A DNA stretch of 47,125 bases from Syncephalis plumigaleata (lineage: Eukaryota; Zoopagomycota; Zoopagomycetes; Zoopagales; Piptocephalidaceae). Shown here piece by piece: positions 20,330 through 30,492 of this stretch. Each line of letters opens with the position of its first letter. The first letter of the stretch is position 1. A program made the translations under genes and the position numbers. The notes under the pieces were generated by a model. That model saw only the letters and a list, made by a program, of their open reading frames with translations, did not search any database and was not told where the DNA came from. The stretch is taken from positions 1 to 47,125 of the forward strand of contig JAIXMF010000069.1 in the NCBI GenBank assembly GCA_025201365.1, in the 5' to 3' direction.

Positions 20330-23300
20330 TTATACGAGTGGTCGTCCACTAAGAGCCGTATACAATGACAGCATACTGGCCAATACTACCACGCCTGTCG
20401 TGGAGGCCTCACCTACATCCGCCCATAATCGACCACGATGAGTGGCGGCATTTCTTAACGCTTGAATACACTGACCGGCTAGGAAGCTAGCCCAGAGCAA
20501 GTGTAAAAGCCAAACTCGATAGCCGGCATATTCAAGAGCACCTAGTATAAGCAATGCAATCGGCAATGTATAAACAATATGGACTATGGCGTCGGTAGTG
20601 TTCACCAATGCATTGGCACTGGCATAACGAGCACCGGTAGGTGTATAACTAGTGTTGTTGCTTTGCTCCAACACTTCTACAGTGGTAACAGTTGAAACGG
20701 TCTTTCCTTCGCCAATATCACCCGTGACATCAGTGGCATCAGTTACATCATTATTGGCCGACGACAATGAGGAAGACGAAGAGGAGGGCGACAACGCGGT
20801 GGTGCTTTGTGTAACGCTACGACGGCGACGACGACGAAGAAGTGATGGTTCATCAGATGGTGACACCACTTTCTTGTGTATCACAGCTGATGGTGACATT
20901 TCCCGCATTTGCTTCTGTTGATGTCGTCGACGACCCCATAATCCTAGCAGTAGTCCGAGTAGACACATACTATAGAATAAAGAGACGGGGAAGTAGTCTA
21001 TCGCTTGTTGCGCTCTATTAGGCAATAGATGATAGCCTAATTTACCCTCTTGACTGGATGCCGTCATGTGTGATCGAAGTGCAGGTGGTTCATCCGCCAT
21101 TGCTCGTCGTGGATCATAGCCATGCGGGTGGTGATGCTTCCCGTCATACAATGGCGTGCCATGCATCCAACGCTGATACGTGTTCTCTATTTGTTCCCTT
21201 GCCTTCTGCCATTGTCGTACCAGTGGCCAGGACGATGTTGTTGATTCGTTATTGTATACCTCCGGTACCGTTCGACTAATGGCGGTGTCGGGTCGTGGCA
21301 TCATCAGATGACTACGGTCCTCGTCGGCATTAGCATCTGCACCAATGAACCATTGCATCCATTGTTTCACCGTGGAACCAACAGGACTACCACGATGGCT
21401 GTCCTTGTCGTGGCGAGACATGCCAGGAGGTATACGTCCCTGCTGTTGTCGTGAAGGCGACGAGTATGGCCCAGCGGGAGACTGTGGCAATGATGGTCCG
21501 GCTTCGTTGCTGGCATCGCTATAAGCACCGAATTCGCTAATCAAGATCTTGCCAAGGATTCGGCTCTCCGTCATCATTTGCTCGTGTTGTTGCTCCGCCA
21601 CTCGATGCGCCGTGTCCAGCCAGCTGCGTAGACTATCGATGAACTCGCCTAGATCTCCAGTTAAAGCAGGTTCAGCTTGTTGACGCATCTTTCTGCTCAT
21701 CTCGTAGCGACGACGTGCCCATGTCTCCGACTGGTTAGCCTGCTGCATGATACGACGAGTCAACTCGTGGAATCGATCGTGTACCAGCGAGTCGACATCC
21801 GTGGACGGTCGATAGGATTGCATAATGCCGCCAAAGTAATGTTGGACCTTGTCGGCCGTATCGTCACGGATCGCTTGCACATTCGTGTAGGCATCGCGAG
21901 CCTCTCGTTCGACACGGGACAGCATGGCGCGCACGTACATGATCAATTGTTGACGATCCATCTCGGCGATATTTCGTTTCTGTCGACTATTAAGTCCGGA
22001 ACGACGTAAATGTTGCATCACTCGACGCAAACTAGTGCCGAGTTCCTCCTCCAGCGTATCCACATTGAGCTGCGTTGCTCGTACCGTTTGATCCGATTGT
22101 TGAATAAGCGTAATCAGTTGTTGTGACAGCTCATTAGCTGCCATCGAGCGAGTTTGATGGATAAAGCTATCACTCGGCTGTTGCTTCGTCGTAGTAGTAC
22201 TAGTAGTGGTGGTAGTTGTTGTTGCTTCTGACACTTTATCACGAATATCATCATATTCATCTTTGGCTGATGTGAATACATGACTAATTGGATCAAATAC
22301 ATGTTGCTGCGTCCAGTGACCGCCTCGAGTAAGCTGGTCTTGAATTGTCGACATCAATACATGCAAAGTGCCATGAGCCGTATCTTCCATTTGCTCTGCA
22401 CCTTCCTTCACCCGCTGCTTTGTATCTCTAGCCATCGATCCTGCCTTGTCGCGAGCATCATAGTACTTGTCCTTTACATACTCAGCTCCTTCTTCGGCCT
22501 TATCACGAGCACCATAATACTTGTCCTTCAGATACTCGGCTCCTTCTTCGGCACGATACTTAGCATCGTAATATTTGTCCTTTACATACTCAGCTCCTTC
22601 TTCGGCCTTGTCGCGAGCACCATAGTATTTGTCCTTTGCATACTCGGCTCCTTCCTCAGCACGATACTTAGCATCAGTGGCCATCGATCCTGCTTTATCG
22701 CGAGCATCGTAGTATTTGCCTTTCACATAATTAGCATCTTCTTCAGCCTTATCATGAGCAGCATAATATTTACCTTTCAAATACTCGCTTCCTTCTTCAG
22801 CACGATACTTAGCATCAGAAGCTACCGACTCAGCCTTATCACGAACATCGTAGTATTTGTCCTTTACATACTCGGCTCCTTCTCCAGCCTTGTCGCGAGC
22901 GGTATAGTACTTGTCCTTCACATAATCAGCTCCCTCTTCAGCACGATATTTAGCATCAGTAGCCATTGACTCAGCCTTGTCGCGGGCATCAGAAGCCATC
23001 GATCCTGCTTTGTCACGAACACCGTAGTACTTGTCCTTCACATACTCGGCTCCTTCTTCGGCCTTGTCGCGAGCGGTATAGTACTTGTCCTTCGCATACT
23101 CGCTTCCCTCTTCAGCACGATACTTAGCATCGGAAGCTACCGACTCAGCCTTATCACGAGCATCAGTAGCCATTGATCCTGCTTTGTCACGAGCATCGTA
23201 GTATTTGCCTTTCACATAGTTAGTTCCTTCTATCTTGTCATGAGCAATGTAACACTTACCTTTCAGATACTCGCTTCCCTCTTCAGCACGATACTTAGCA

Positions 23301-24814
23301 TCAGCGCCCATTGACTCAGCCTTGTCACGAGCACCATAATACTTGTCCTTTGCATAATCGGCTCCTTCATCAGCACGATACTTAGCATCAGTAGCCATTG
23401 ATCCTGCTTTGTCACGAGCATCGTAGTATTTGCCTTTCACATAATTAGTTCCTTCTACCTTATCATGATAATCGTAATATTTACCTTTCAAATACTCGCT
23501 TCCTTCTTCAGCACGATACTTAGCATAATCAGCTCCTTCCTCAGCACGATACTTAGCATCAGTAGCCATTGACTCAGCCTTGTCACGAGCACCATAGTAT
23601 TTGTCCTTCACATAATCAGCTCCCTCTTCAGCACGATACTTAGCATCAGTAGCCATTGATCCTGCTTTGTCACGAGCATCGTAGTATTTGCCTTTCACAT
23701 AATTAGTTCCTTCTTCTATCTTGTCATGAGCAGTATAGTATTTACCTTTCAAATACTCGCTTCCCTCTTCAGCACGATACTTAGCATCGGAAGCTACCGA
23801 CTCAGCCTTGTCGCGTGCATCATCCTTCACACTACCAGATTTATCGTATACACGCTGCGCTGTCTCAGATGCATCGTGTCCTGCTGACTGGAACCAGCTC
23901 TTCGCACCTTCTGTGGCCTCGGCATATTGCTCCTTCACTTTCTCGGTAGCCTTGCTTATCGGTGTGGTCATCGGCTCCATTTTCTCGCTTGCCTTATGCT
24001 TGACACGGCCCGCTTTGTGCATTAGAGCTTCCTGCGCTTGGATCAGGTTCGATTTGATCTCCTCTGTCAAATGGGCGAATTTATCTCCCAAGTGATCGCC
24101 CTCCTCTAGCATTCTGTTGGCCGCATCCTCAACCTGATGTCCATGCTCCACGGCACGTCGACGATTGTCTCGCGCTCGTTCCTCCAGCGCCACCTTGATT
24201 TCGTCGTATAGTCGCGAGATCCAATAGCGACGATCATCGTCATCATGATGCTCGCCTTCCTCCGTCTCCTCAGAAGGCGTGGTGCTCACCCATTCCTTGC
24301 CGCTCCAAACGACCGATGCACCTTTGTCTTTCAGTTGTTCCGATGCATCCCTAGCCGAATGCCAAAAGTCCTCGGCCATGGCCCAGCCACGCTCACGAGC
24401 CTGGTTGTAGGCGGCCTCAGAGGCGGTGCGCGCTTCGTCCAATCGGCCACGGAAGTAGCCCCAAGCCCAGTCGGGATTCTCGTTGTGCGCGGCGTACACC
24501 TCGTTCAAGCTGAGTCGTTGTCGTCCCGTGGCCTGGTCCAGCTTACCGTGATAGTAGCCGGTGGACCAGTCACGATCCATTTCCAGCTGAGTCTTGCCCC
24601 GATGACGAATGGCGTTCGCTCGTTGTTCGGCCTCCTCCAAATCGTAGGTTAGCCGTCCAAGCTCCTCGGCCGATCGTCCATACGCCCGGATCATTTGATC
24701 CTTAGCGGTAGACACCAAATCGGCCAGCCTTTTCTTCTGATCCTCTTGCTGACGTTCACGGCCAGAAGGATCCGTCGGTTCAAAGTAGGACCAAAACGAT
24801 TGCGCTATATCCAT
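20330..24814 (-). CDS. Giant LEA/apolipoprotein-like repeat protein with C-terminal membrane anchors
   Basis: One exon; ATG at 24814, 1494 residues, much longer than its neighbours. Residues ~1-330 are charged and helical with Trp/Tyr-rich segments (DWSTGYYHGKL, DWAWGYFRGRL). Residues ~330-805 are a tandem array of two helical modules: an 18-mer like EEGAEYVKDKYYGARDKA and an 11-mer like DKAESMATDAK. This resembles group-3 LEA proteins, perilipins and apolipoproteins, whose amphipathic helices lie on membranes or protect during drying. Residues ~810-1200 are coiled-coil-like. Four hydrophobic segments follow near the C-terminus (DYFPVSLFYSMCLLGLLLGLW, AIVHIVYTLPIALLILGALEY, LLHLLWASFLAGQCIQAL, TTGVVVLASMLSLYTAL), separated by a basic run (LRRRRRRS). 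Inferred: a membrane-anchored lipid-surface or stress protein. No named family can be assigned. Confidence 0.75.
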   Translation of the reverse strand: MDIAQSFWSYFEPTDPSGRERQQEDQKKRLADLVSTAKDQMIRAYGRSAEELGRLTYDLEEAEQRANAIRHRGKTQLEMDRDWSTGYYHGKLDQATGRQRLSLNEVYAAHNENPDWAWGYFRGRLDEARTASEAAYNQARERGWAMAEDFWHSARDASEQLKDKGASVVWSGKEWVSTTPSEETEEGEHHDDDDRRYWISRLYDEIKVALEERARDNRRRAVEHGHQVEDAANRMLEEGDHLGDKFAHLTEEIKSNLIQAQEALMHKAGRVKHKASEKMEPMTTPISKATEKVKEQYAEATEGAKSWFQSAGHDASETAQRVYDKSGSVKDDARDKAESVASDAKYRAEEGSEYLKGKYYTAHDKIEEGTNYVKGKYYDARDKAGSMATDAKYRAEEGADYVKDKYYGARDKAESMATDAKYRAEEGADYAKYRAEEGSEYLKGKYYDYHDKVEGTNYVKGKYYDARDKAGSMATDAKYRADEGADYAKDKYYGARDKAESMGADAKYRAEEGSEYLKGKCYIAHDKIEGTNYVKGKYYDARDKAGSMATDARDKAESVASDAKYRAEEGSEYAKDKYYTARDKAEEGAEYVKDKYYGVRDKAGSMASDARDKAESMATDAKYRAEEGADYVKDKYYTARDKAGEGAEYVKDKYYDVRDKAESVASDAKYRAEEGSEYLKGKYYAAHDKAEEDANYVKGKYYDARDKAGSMATDAKYRAEEGAEYAKDKYYGARDKAEEGAEYVKDKYYDAKYRAEEGAEYLKDKYYGARDKAEEGAEYVKDKYYDARDKAGSMARDTKQRVKEGAEQMEDTAHGTLHVLMSTIQDQLTRGGHWTQQHVFDPISHVFTSAKDEYDDIRDKVSEATTTTTTTSTTTTKQQPSDSFIHQTRSMAANELSQQLITLIQQSDQTVRATQLNVDTLEEELGTSLRRVMQHLRRSGLNSRQKRNIAEMDRQQLIMYVRAMLSRVEREARDAYTNVQAIRDDTADKVQHYFGGIMQSYRPSTDVDSLVHDRFHELTRRIMQQANQSETWARRRYEMSRKMRQQAEPALTGDLGEFIDSLRSWLDTAHRVAEQQHEQMMTESRILGKILISEFGAYSDASNEAGPSLPQSPAGPYSSPSRQQQGRIPPGMSRHDKDSHRGSPVGSTVKQWMQWFIGADANADEDRSHLMMPRPDTAISRTVPEVYNNESTTSSWPLVRQWQKAREQIENTYQRWMHGTPLYDGKHHHPHGYDPRRAMADEPPALRSHMTASSQEGKLGYHLLPNRAQQAIDYFPVSLFYSMCLLGLLLGLWGRRRHQQKQMREMSPSAVIHKKVVSPSDEPSLLRRRRRRSVTQSTTALSPSSSSSSLSSANNDVTDATDVTGDIGEGKTVSTVTTVEVLEQSNNTSYTPTGARYASANALVNTTDAIVHIVYTLPIALLILGALEYAGYRVWLLHLLWASFLAGQCIQALRNAATHRGRLWADVGEASTTGVVVLASMLSLYTALSGRPLV
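22400..23825 (-). repeat. Coding tandem repeat of 18- and 11-residue helical modules
   Basis: About 1.4 kb inside the giant protein gene. Units of 54 nt and 33 nt alternate irregularly (18+11, 18+18+11, 11+11). DNA copies differ at many silent sites while the Tyr/Lys/Glu/Gly pattern is kept, which suggests selection on the protein. One unit is truncated (GADYAKYRAEEG, near 23525). The opposite strand carries a long open frame (22280-22969) as a by-product. Confidence 0.85.
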
Positions 24815-25360
24815 GTTGCTGTTATCGTGAGATATGATTTCGAAGAAATAGTAGTAGTAGTAGTAGAATAAGAAGTAGAAGTAGAAGAACACGTCAAGCA
24901 GTCGTTTTTTACAAGAGATATTGAAAGATACAATGCGTGCTAGCTCGAAAAGTTCCAGGTAAAGTTGAAGTTAACCGGGGGCATAGTGCTAAGAGAAACC
25001 ATCTGTTTTATTTAAAACGAGTCAGTATCCGTAGAGGTGTCTCAGTTTGTAACGTCATCTATTGTTCATTGATGATTACATATTTTGTATGAAACAGTAT
25101 CAATGCATGATGATCATACCTATTAATATTTCTTCTGACGTAATTTGTACCTCACCTGGAATAAGAGGGTATGGAATACGCCAGTCCAAAAAAAGAAACT
25201 ACAGTCATGTCAGTCGATAGATACGCATACACATCGTCATCATCATCATGATCATCATCATTCAGTGTTGTATTTTATATAGATTAATAATGACATATAT
25301 ACATTAAAGTAATAAAATATCTAGCTTATTATTCAGCTTATACTATTTAAATAAGTTTAT
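24815..25360. other. Intergenic, upstream region of the giant repeat gene
   Basis: Contains a GTA/TAC microsatellite at about 24846-24865 directly upstream of the start, probably 5' UTR, and AT-rich DNA. A splice-like donor (CCAGGTGAGG on the minus strand near 25150-25160) could mark a 5'-UTR intron, but nothing confirms it. Confidence 0.5.
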
Positions 25361-29888: not shown

Positions 29889-30492
29889 CTAATCTAATGC
29901 CATCACTGTTCTCTGTGCATTTGTAGATGTTGCTGCTGTCGAACTGGCAGTTACACTCGTTGGACGACGATTTTCCGTTGTTAATCCAACTGCTGCTTCT
30001 GCTTCGGCTTGCGTATACGGTTCATCCTTCAATTCACGTAACCTAACAATGACATGTCACATTAATAACTATGCACTAGCATATAAATAATAGCAAGTAA
30101 TTACCGTTTCTTATGTGCCTTGCTTTTCAAATGAACATCCATGGCACTTGTCGAAATAAAGTATCGACTATTTTATTCATATGATTCATATGTATTAGTT
30201 GTCTATCTCTACTACTACATACCGCACTACACTTACCTGCACTCTACGCAGTAGAACTGGCCTAGACCTGGAAGATCAGCGTCAATTGGCTGAGCTTTGA
30301 GCTTCTCGACGTTTTCCGGTCGTAAATCATCGTGAATCTGGTCTAAATGTAATTCATTTCAAGTCAAGGTCATTACCAATAAACATAGTCAGGCTAAGCA
30401 TAAAGGATATCTTTCGTTCGTCGACGAGTGCGATGCGCCTTTTTAATAGCCTTGTTGTTCTTGTGAACACGCGAACGACGTTGTGGTGGCAT
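29889..30492 (-). CDS. BUD20: Bud20/ZNF593-type zinc-finger ribosome-export factor
   Basis: Four exons on the minus strand: 30492-30411, 30348-30237, 30167-30105, 30042-29889; 136 residues. A basic N-terminus ([20 protein letters not shown]) and [11 protein letters not shown] lead into a U1-type C2H2 finger, CVEC-x12-H-x5-H ([28 protein letters not shown]), then an acidic/Ala tail. Bud20 is a shuttling factor that helps export pre-60S particles. The first intron is not GT-AG: it starts ATATCCTTT and ends AC, and only that choice restores the conserved TKDLDQI motif in frame (see the intron entry). Other introns are ordinary GT-AG. It converges with ureD. Confidence 0.92.
30349..30410 (-). other. 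U12-type AT-AC intron in BUD20
   Basis: A 62-nt intron read on the minus strand. The 5' splice site ATATCCTTT is an exact match to the minor-spliceosome AT-AC consensus. A branch-site-like CCTTGAC (consensus TCCTTRAC) has its branch A about 15 nt from the 3' end, in the normal U12 range. The intron ends TTAC. Joining AAAG to ATTTAGACCAG encodes KDLDQ, the family consensus. No GT donor in the region keeps the frame open. Confidence 0.85.

Follow-up and report, generated by a model that had tools for sequence, protein, structure and literature searches.

Does BUD20 of Syncephalis plumigaleata carry a genuine minor intron, and does the genome still encode the machinery that would remove it? The minor spliceosome has been lost from most well-studied fungi, and in this gene a segment that begins with AT and ends with AC interrupts the reading frame. 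The window analysed here is the whole stretch of 47,125 nucleotides that contains this gene. The segment was examined in its gene, in the proteins of relatives, in the rest of the 32.6 Mb genome and against the snRNAs and proteins of the minor spliceosome.

The BUD20 gene and the signals of its first intron

The host gene was recognized from the window sequence as BUD20/ZNF593, which occupies 30492-29889 of the minus strand and encodes 136 amino acids in four exons (Table 1). With intron 1 left unspliced, the frame read TKDILYA and then ran into a stop, and with intron 1 removed, TKD-LDQIH was read across the junction. The spliced protein matched the solved structures of yeast Bud20 (E 1.6e-25) and human ZNF593 (E 1.3e-22) with alignments spanning the junction region, and its zinc finger was assigned to PF12171 by Pfam (43.9 bits). 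Comparison with 99 homologues showed the traits of the family, namely a basic N-terminus, TKDLDQI, a single C2H2 jaz-type finger and a YTQxEAEAA tail. The restoration of TKDLDQI on splicing, as proposed in the initial annotation, was thus borne out by the frame and by the Bud20/ZNF593 matches. Its description of the other introns as having GT or GC donors holds for BUD20 introns 2 and 3, the two that were considered here, both of which are GT-AG.

Table 1. Features of the BUD20 gene in the window (positions counted from the first letter of the window).
Feature	Position	Strand	Details
BUD20 exon 1	30411..30492	minus	ATG at 30492; 3' end ...CGAACGAAAG, phase 1
Putative AT-AC minor (U12-type) intron 1	30349..30410	minus	62 nt, phase 1; reads ATATCCTTTATGC...GACCTTGACTTGAAATGAATTAC
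Putative minor 5' splice site ATATCCTTT	30402..30410	minus	ATG comes next; from sequence and duplexes
Putative branch site CCTTGAC	30363..30369	minus	proposed branch A at 30364; duplex with U12 GUAAGGA
Putative 3' splice site AC (TTAC)	30349..30350	minus	15 nt from branch A; first AC past the branch site
BUD20 exon 2	30237..30348	minus	starts AT, TTA GAC CAG (LDQIHDDL)
Ordinary GT-AG intron 2	30168..30236	minus	GTAAGT...AAATAG; C2H2 finger intact when spliced at its acceptor
BUD20 exon 3 (zinc finger)	30105..30167	minus	Pfam and reading frame
Ordinary GT-AG intron 3	30043..30104	minus	GTAATT...TTGTTAG
BUD20 exon 4 to stop	29889..30042	minus	open frame 29889-30056

The donor of intron 1 agrees with the U12-type 5' splice site RTATCCTT, and in duplex computation it was complementary to the 5' end of the U11 of this genome (AUAAAGG) as well as to AAAGGA of U6atac. 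The branch site of such introns resembles TTCCTTRAC and lies no more than about 30 nt from the 3' end; CCTTGAC was found here at 15 nt, as part of ACCTTGAC, which differs from TCCTTRAC. The termini, which may be AT-AC or GT-AG in this class, are AT-AC. An exact minor donor, CCTTGAC about 15 nt from the end and a terminal AC had been described at the outset, and all of them were seen at 30410-30349.

The gene was also found on a second contig of 1.4 Mb (C329); 323 nt of the two copies show 6 differences, 0 of which fall in the 62-nt intron, so the intron is identical in both alleles of BUD20. The contig of the window (C350) resembles an alternative haplotype of part of C329, and other short contigs also have near-identical second copies; genome-wide counts therefore need merging. 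Elsewhere in the window, a 1546-residue open frame on the minus strand (20333-24970) contains many DARDKAESMATDAKYRAEEGADYVKDKYY-type repeats and hydrophobic stretches near its C-terminus, which we take to resemble late-embryogenesis-abundant or apolipoprotein-like helices, and one window protein had a metagenome relative only. Another protein of the window, 684 aa long, is distinguished from S. plumigaleata BDF22DRAFT_742549 by one residue.

The same position in relatives

Four related proteins carry marks at the position of intron 1. The S. fuscata database protein P0001 reads TKDILLKAIHDDL at the junction, that of Thamnocephalis sphaerospora (P0003) reads TKDILTIHEDL, and the partial model of S. 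pseudoplumigaleata (P0005) starts exactly at LDQIHDDL; all three models appear wrongly spliced or truncated at the minor intron. Since D-I-L is the translation of AAAG followed by ATATCCTT, gene finders would appear to have entered the intron and left it by a false site. The metagenome protein P0060 is an in-frame read-through with a 25-residue insert, equal to 75 nt, that starts with DIL and ends at NELH-LDQ. The first letters of the insert are compatible with ATATCCTN and the last with GAATTAC followed by AT, and the part between is unlike that of the intron in the window in length and letters; the insert looks like the same intron left unremoved. Taken together, these protein letters give strong indirect signs that the intron position may be common to the four relatives. 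No S. plumigaleata name was present among the 99 homologues as listed and none was more than 90% identical, and the BUD20 model of this species may thus be missing or broken.

Candidate AT-AC introns elsewhere in the genome

The pattern ATATCCTT-N22-52-CCTTRAC gave 45 matches in the genome and 3 in the reversed control, and its GT form gave 15 and 5, respectively; an earlier pattern, TATCCTT-N25-55-TCCTTRAC, had given 35 against 8. The chance expectation of the donor-branch pattern is about 0.004 per 47-kb window, before the exact codon is required. After merging of alleles and repeats, 28 AT and 12 GT matches were distinct. Not all of these are introns; some of the AT ones, such as the four-copy repeat at L055/L074/L083, have no resemblance to an intron. 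The strict-pattern matches were mostly AT- rather than GT- (28 versus 12 distinct, false matches included), which is the reverse of most species. CCTTTAT, with TAT at positions 9-11, was present at the donor of 12 of the 40 distinct matches.

The loci inspected were 12 and the window, followed by 25 distinct matches among 30 loci (L054-L083). For reconstruction 21 loci were chosen by their open frames, and 19 of these together with BUD20 were submitted to Pfam, L044 and L061 being omitted. The phase and acceptor were chosen by hand, with acceptors tried about 7-29 nt from branch A in the first set and about 8-27 nt in the second, and a Pfam domain match served as the independent check. A domain above cut-off spanned the AT-AC junction in 11 of the 20 spliced reconstructions, these being DCP2, MoCoBD_2, GOST_TM, zf-HIT, Es2, MIF4G_like, BRCT, DHHC, FH2, Prefoldin and CDC45. 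The other nine (BUD20, L082 and seven more) had no above-cut-off Pfam domain over the junction; in BUD20 this is because the zinc finger sits outside it.

All 11 domain-checked introns were AT-AC, ending in TAC (10) or CAC (1). Their last base was 11-26 nt from branch A, a range that includes the 15 nt of BUD20; 10-13 nt is typical of animals. An earlier AC was skipped in 6 of the 11, and hence the use of the first AC is no general rule. Three distinct GT-type candidates were available with flanks (L026, L029/L030 and L044), and L026, the only one given to Pfam, had no match; the AT:GT ratio therefore rests on pattern counts, with 0 GT-type introns verified by a domain. The L026 candidate, around position 1500, lies in a membrane protein, presumably an AKR1-like palmitoyltransferase, and has in-frame AC and AG acceptors three bases apart.

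Other ways of splicing the BUD20 junction

Could the BUD20 junction be explained by an ordinary intron of the major spliceosome, with the AT-AC motif a coincidence? The initial annotation had stated that no GT-AG alternative keeps the frame, and this was too strong, since 15 of the GT/GC-AG combinations tried near the junction keep it without a stop, and the gene models of two relatives apparently pick such sites. None of the 15, however, restores TKDLDQI or has a GTRNGT-like donor, and P0060 agrees in its letters with the donor and acceptor ends of the AT-AC intron, although its middle is changed in length and letters. As far as the sequence tells, the conclusion of the annotation holds, and we regard a major-type intron at this place as having a negligible chance of being correct. 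The pairing of the same minor donor with a downstream AG (TTTAG, 30343) is a closer competitor, as it would make a 68-nt AT-AG minor intron that preserves the frame, and this AG is 21 nt past branch A, inside the 11-26 nt range of AC ends in this genome. In-frame AG is also found elsewhere, in Es2 (10 nt) and CDC45 (31 nt). The use of AG in BUD20 would, however, remove [LIV]-D, which is present in 92 of the 99 homologues (81 in a first survey, plus 11 in which [LIV]D takes another form), the seven without it being P0001 and P0003, whose reading is disturbed, and five without the motif in their first 70 residues. LDQIH is retained in the S. pseudoplumigaleata model and in P0060. Furthermore, when in-frame AC and AG alternatives were listed 5-40 nt from branch A, 3 of the 11 domain-checked introns had none of either kind; all 11 read with AC, and an in-frame AG less than 30 nt from branch A occurred in 1 of them (Es2). 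We therefore consider the AT-AG form very unlikely and retain the AT-AC intron that ends at 30349.

Minor snRNAs and proteins of the minor spliceosome

The genome was searched with Rfam models at E up to 10, alongside 14 control genomes. The initial annotation had predicted that U11, U12, U4atac and U6atac would be encoded; U6atac and U11 were found above the Rfam cut-off, and U12 was accepted on its core and its two copies. The U6atac locus scored 33.7 bits, just above the cut-off of 33; it has an intact AAAAGGAGAGA, and its 5' GUGUUG is matched by CAACAC. Two further loci, L002 and L003, were rejected as U6atac, being ordinary U6. The U11 locus, for which the cut-off is 39, reached 35.7 bits when the whole genome was searched and 53.7 when the locus was rescored with laxer filters. 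Its 5' end is AUAAAGG where the model has AAAAAGG, a change that matches the CCTTTAT donors, and its duplex with the BUD20 donor was computed at -7.3 kcal/mol versus -5.2 for the model consensus.

The search for U12 was empty at the default threshold and at E 10 returned two loci, which at 27.4 and 22.8 bits fall short of the cut-off (53) but have the UUAAUGAGUAAGGA core. These loci (L021, 1503-1770, and L022 on the reverse strand) have in common a 269-nt block of 97.4% identity between unrelated flanks, which starts with GTCTTAATTAATGAGTAAGGATATAAC, the RNA 5' end, and finishes at a T-run; they look like two copies of one RNA gene. The U12 would be about 262 nt long, with a long predicted 3' hairpin, for a 151-position Rfam model, and U11 (about 198 nt, model 134) and U6atac (about 183 nt, model 126) were also long.

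Of the four snRNAs, U4atac is the most doubtful, its weak candidate, L020, having scored no better than chance (20.1 bits, E 4.8). For stem II, formed between the 5' part of L020 and the U6atac of this genome, an energy of -32.5 kcal/mol was computed; in the pairing control such a value was reached by 2 of 12,466 windows of the fetched loci, of which one was the strand complementary to U6atac. L020 was preferred to the better-scoring L019 (22.4 bits) because L020 contains both CGTCCTTGC, a stretch that the U6atac of this genome predicts, and the Sm-like AATTTTTGG; the pairing test was run on L020 alone. In the control genomes weak matches at E up to 10 were common for U6atac (11/14), U4atac (11/14) and U12 (7/14) and fewer for U11 (3/14), and none was over the cut-off in any of the 14.

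Proteins of the U11/U12-65K type had also been anticipated, and genes for 65K and U11-48K were found, the former by comparison with human 65K. The conserved segment of U11-48K matched chain F of 8r7n (E 1.3e-8), and a CHHC finger lies upstream of it on the same strand; the finger alone scored 19.5 bits for a Pfam cut-off of 21.1, with GTSF1 matched better than 48K. The first 65K query had no match in the genome and a longer one gave weak matches (best E 0.0045), the third-ranked of which is 65K by frame reading; the gene of the top match reads like a poly(A)-binding protein and was rejected. The 65K candidate has an RRM and a downstream segment with 51% identity over 59 aa to the human 65K. 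A segment of the candidate had no PDB match and its N-terminal part matches many RRM proteins, so the candidate owes its name to the similarity with human 65K. The search for CENATAC/CCDC84 gave no match in this genome or in any control genome, and is hence uninformative.

Discussion

These results together indicate that the segment 30410-30349 is almost certainly a genuine U12-type AT-AC intron in BUD20, a gene with a role in pre-60S ribosome assembly, and that a functioning minor spliceosome would remove it. In the proposed course of events, the U11 5' end AUAAAGG would pair with the donor CCUUUAU and the GUAAGGA of U12 with the branch site CCUUGAC. At the donor, U11 would next give way to U6atac (AAAGGA), which U4atac would bring in, with the AC 15 nt past branch A acting as the acceptor. 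The transcription of the snRNAs and the splicing itself we infer, and we would guess that the genome contains two to four dozen minor introns in all, this one included. A different view of the same intron would be that it is real but belongs to a minor spliceosome in decay, so that such introns are spliced inefficiently or left to the major spliceosome. The divergence of U12 and U4atac from the Rfam models and the wide acceptor distances (11-26 nt) could be read in this way, as could the missing CENATAC match were it informative. Against decay, the intron is matched by the pairing regions of U11, U12 and U6atac, stem II of U4atac fits U6atac, the two U12 copies have been kept 97% identical, and introns of this type sit in genes matching CDC45, DCP2 and MIF4G_like. 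We consider decay improbable and favour the removal of the BUD20 intron by a functioning minor spliceosome.

For comparison with known cases, Rhizopus and Phycomyces belong to the Mucoromycota and Blastocystis is a stramenopile. The accessible part of a recent survey (Larue and Roy, 2023, PMC10639083) counts minor introns at 205 for Rhizophagus irregularis and 249 for Basidiobolus meristosporus, reports no convincing ones in Ascomycota or Basidiomycota, and gives Zoopagomycota an ancestral minor-intron density that was low. According to the same text (PMC10639083), annotated introns were scored and the snRNA threshold was E 0.01; by the E-values obtained here, in a different search set-up, two of the four snRNAs would pass it. 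Donor and branch signals and conserved genes are shared with Rhizophagus and Basidiobolus (PMC10639083, as far as accessible). Rhizophagus is described there as having all four minor snRNAs, of which U11, U12 and U6atac were found here next to the weak U4atac candidate, and its commonest minor phase, phase 1, is that of the BUD20 intron. Zoopagales are a different lineage from both. Approximate counts of U12 introns, about 4 in Rhizopus oryzae and about 20 in Phycomyces blakesleeanus, come from Bartschat and Samuelsson (2010, PMC2846911) as quoted in PMC10639083; those few introns, in fungi that the accessible text of the paper calls Zygomycota, resemble the present case in occurring together with minor snRNAs, and BUD20 has no mention in that text. 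The apparent predominance of AT-AC is shared with Blastocystis, where 77% of the minor introns (196/253) are of this form according to the accessible text of PMC10639083. The Blastocystis introns are very short.

Minor introns in other early-diverging fungi are thus already known from the accessible parts of PMC10639083 and PMC2846911, and what is new is the lineage, the apparent AT-AC richness, the long snRNAs and a misannotation that could make surveys undercount. The main text of PMC10639083, as far as it was available, has no mention of Syncephalis, Thamnocephalis, BUD20 or ZNF593. In a literature search that was thin for subscription journals, no publication was found joining Syncephalis with minor introns, and PMC10639083 alone was found for minor introns and Zoopagomycota; none was found on ZNF593 with a U12-type intron.

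A wider proposal, which we advance tentatively and think slightly less probable than its opposite, is that Zoopagales (Syncephalis, Thamnocephalis) have AT-AC-dominated minor introns, enlarged snRNAs (U12 about 262, U11 about 198 and U6atac about 183 nt), a U11 whose 5' end has co-adapted with a CCTTTAT donor, and wide branch-acceptor spacing. Automatic annotation would mis-splice such introns, surveys of annotated introns would undercount them, and part of the reported loss in the Zoopagomycota ancestor might be artefactual. The candidate machinery described here would document a retained minor spliceosome in Zoopagomycotina, a lineage for which no report was found, and would provide a fungal case of apparent AT-AC predominance that is useful for the study of acceptor choice after a minor branch site. 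Other AT-AC genes in S. fuscata, T. sphaerospora and S. pseudoplumigaleata may be damaged in the same way as BUD20, and TKDIL in place of the TKDLDQI of relatives offers a practical sign of mis-modelled AT-AC introns in public fungal annotations, which bear on the counts of minor-intron gain and loss.
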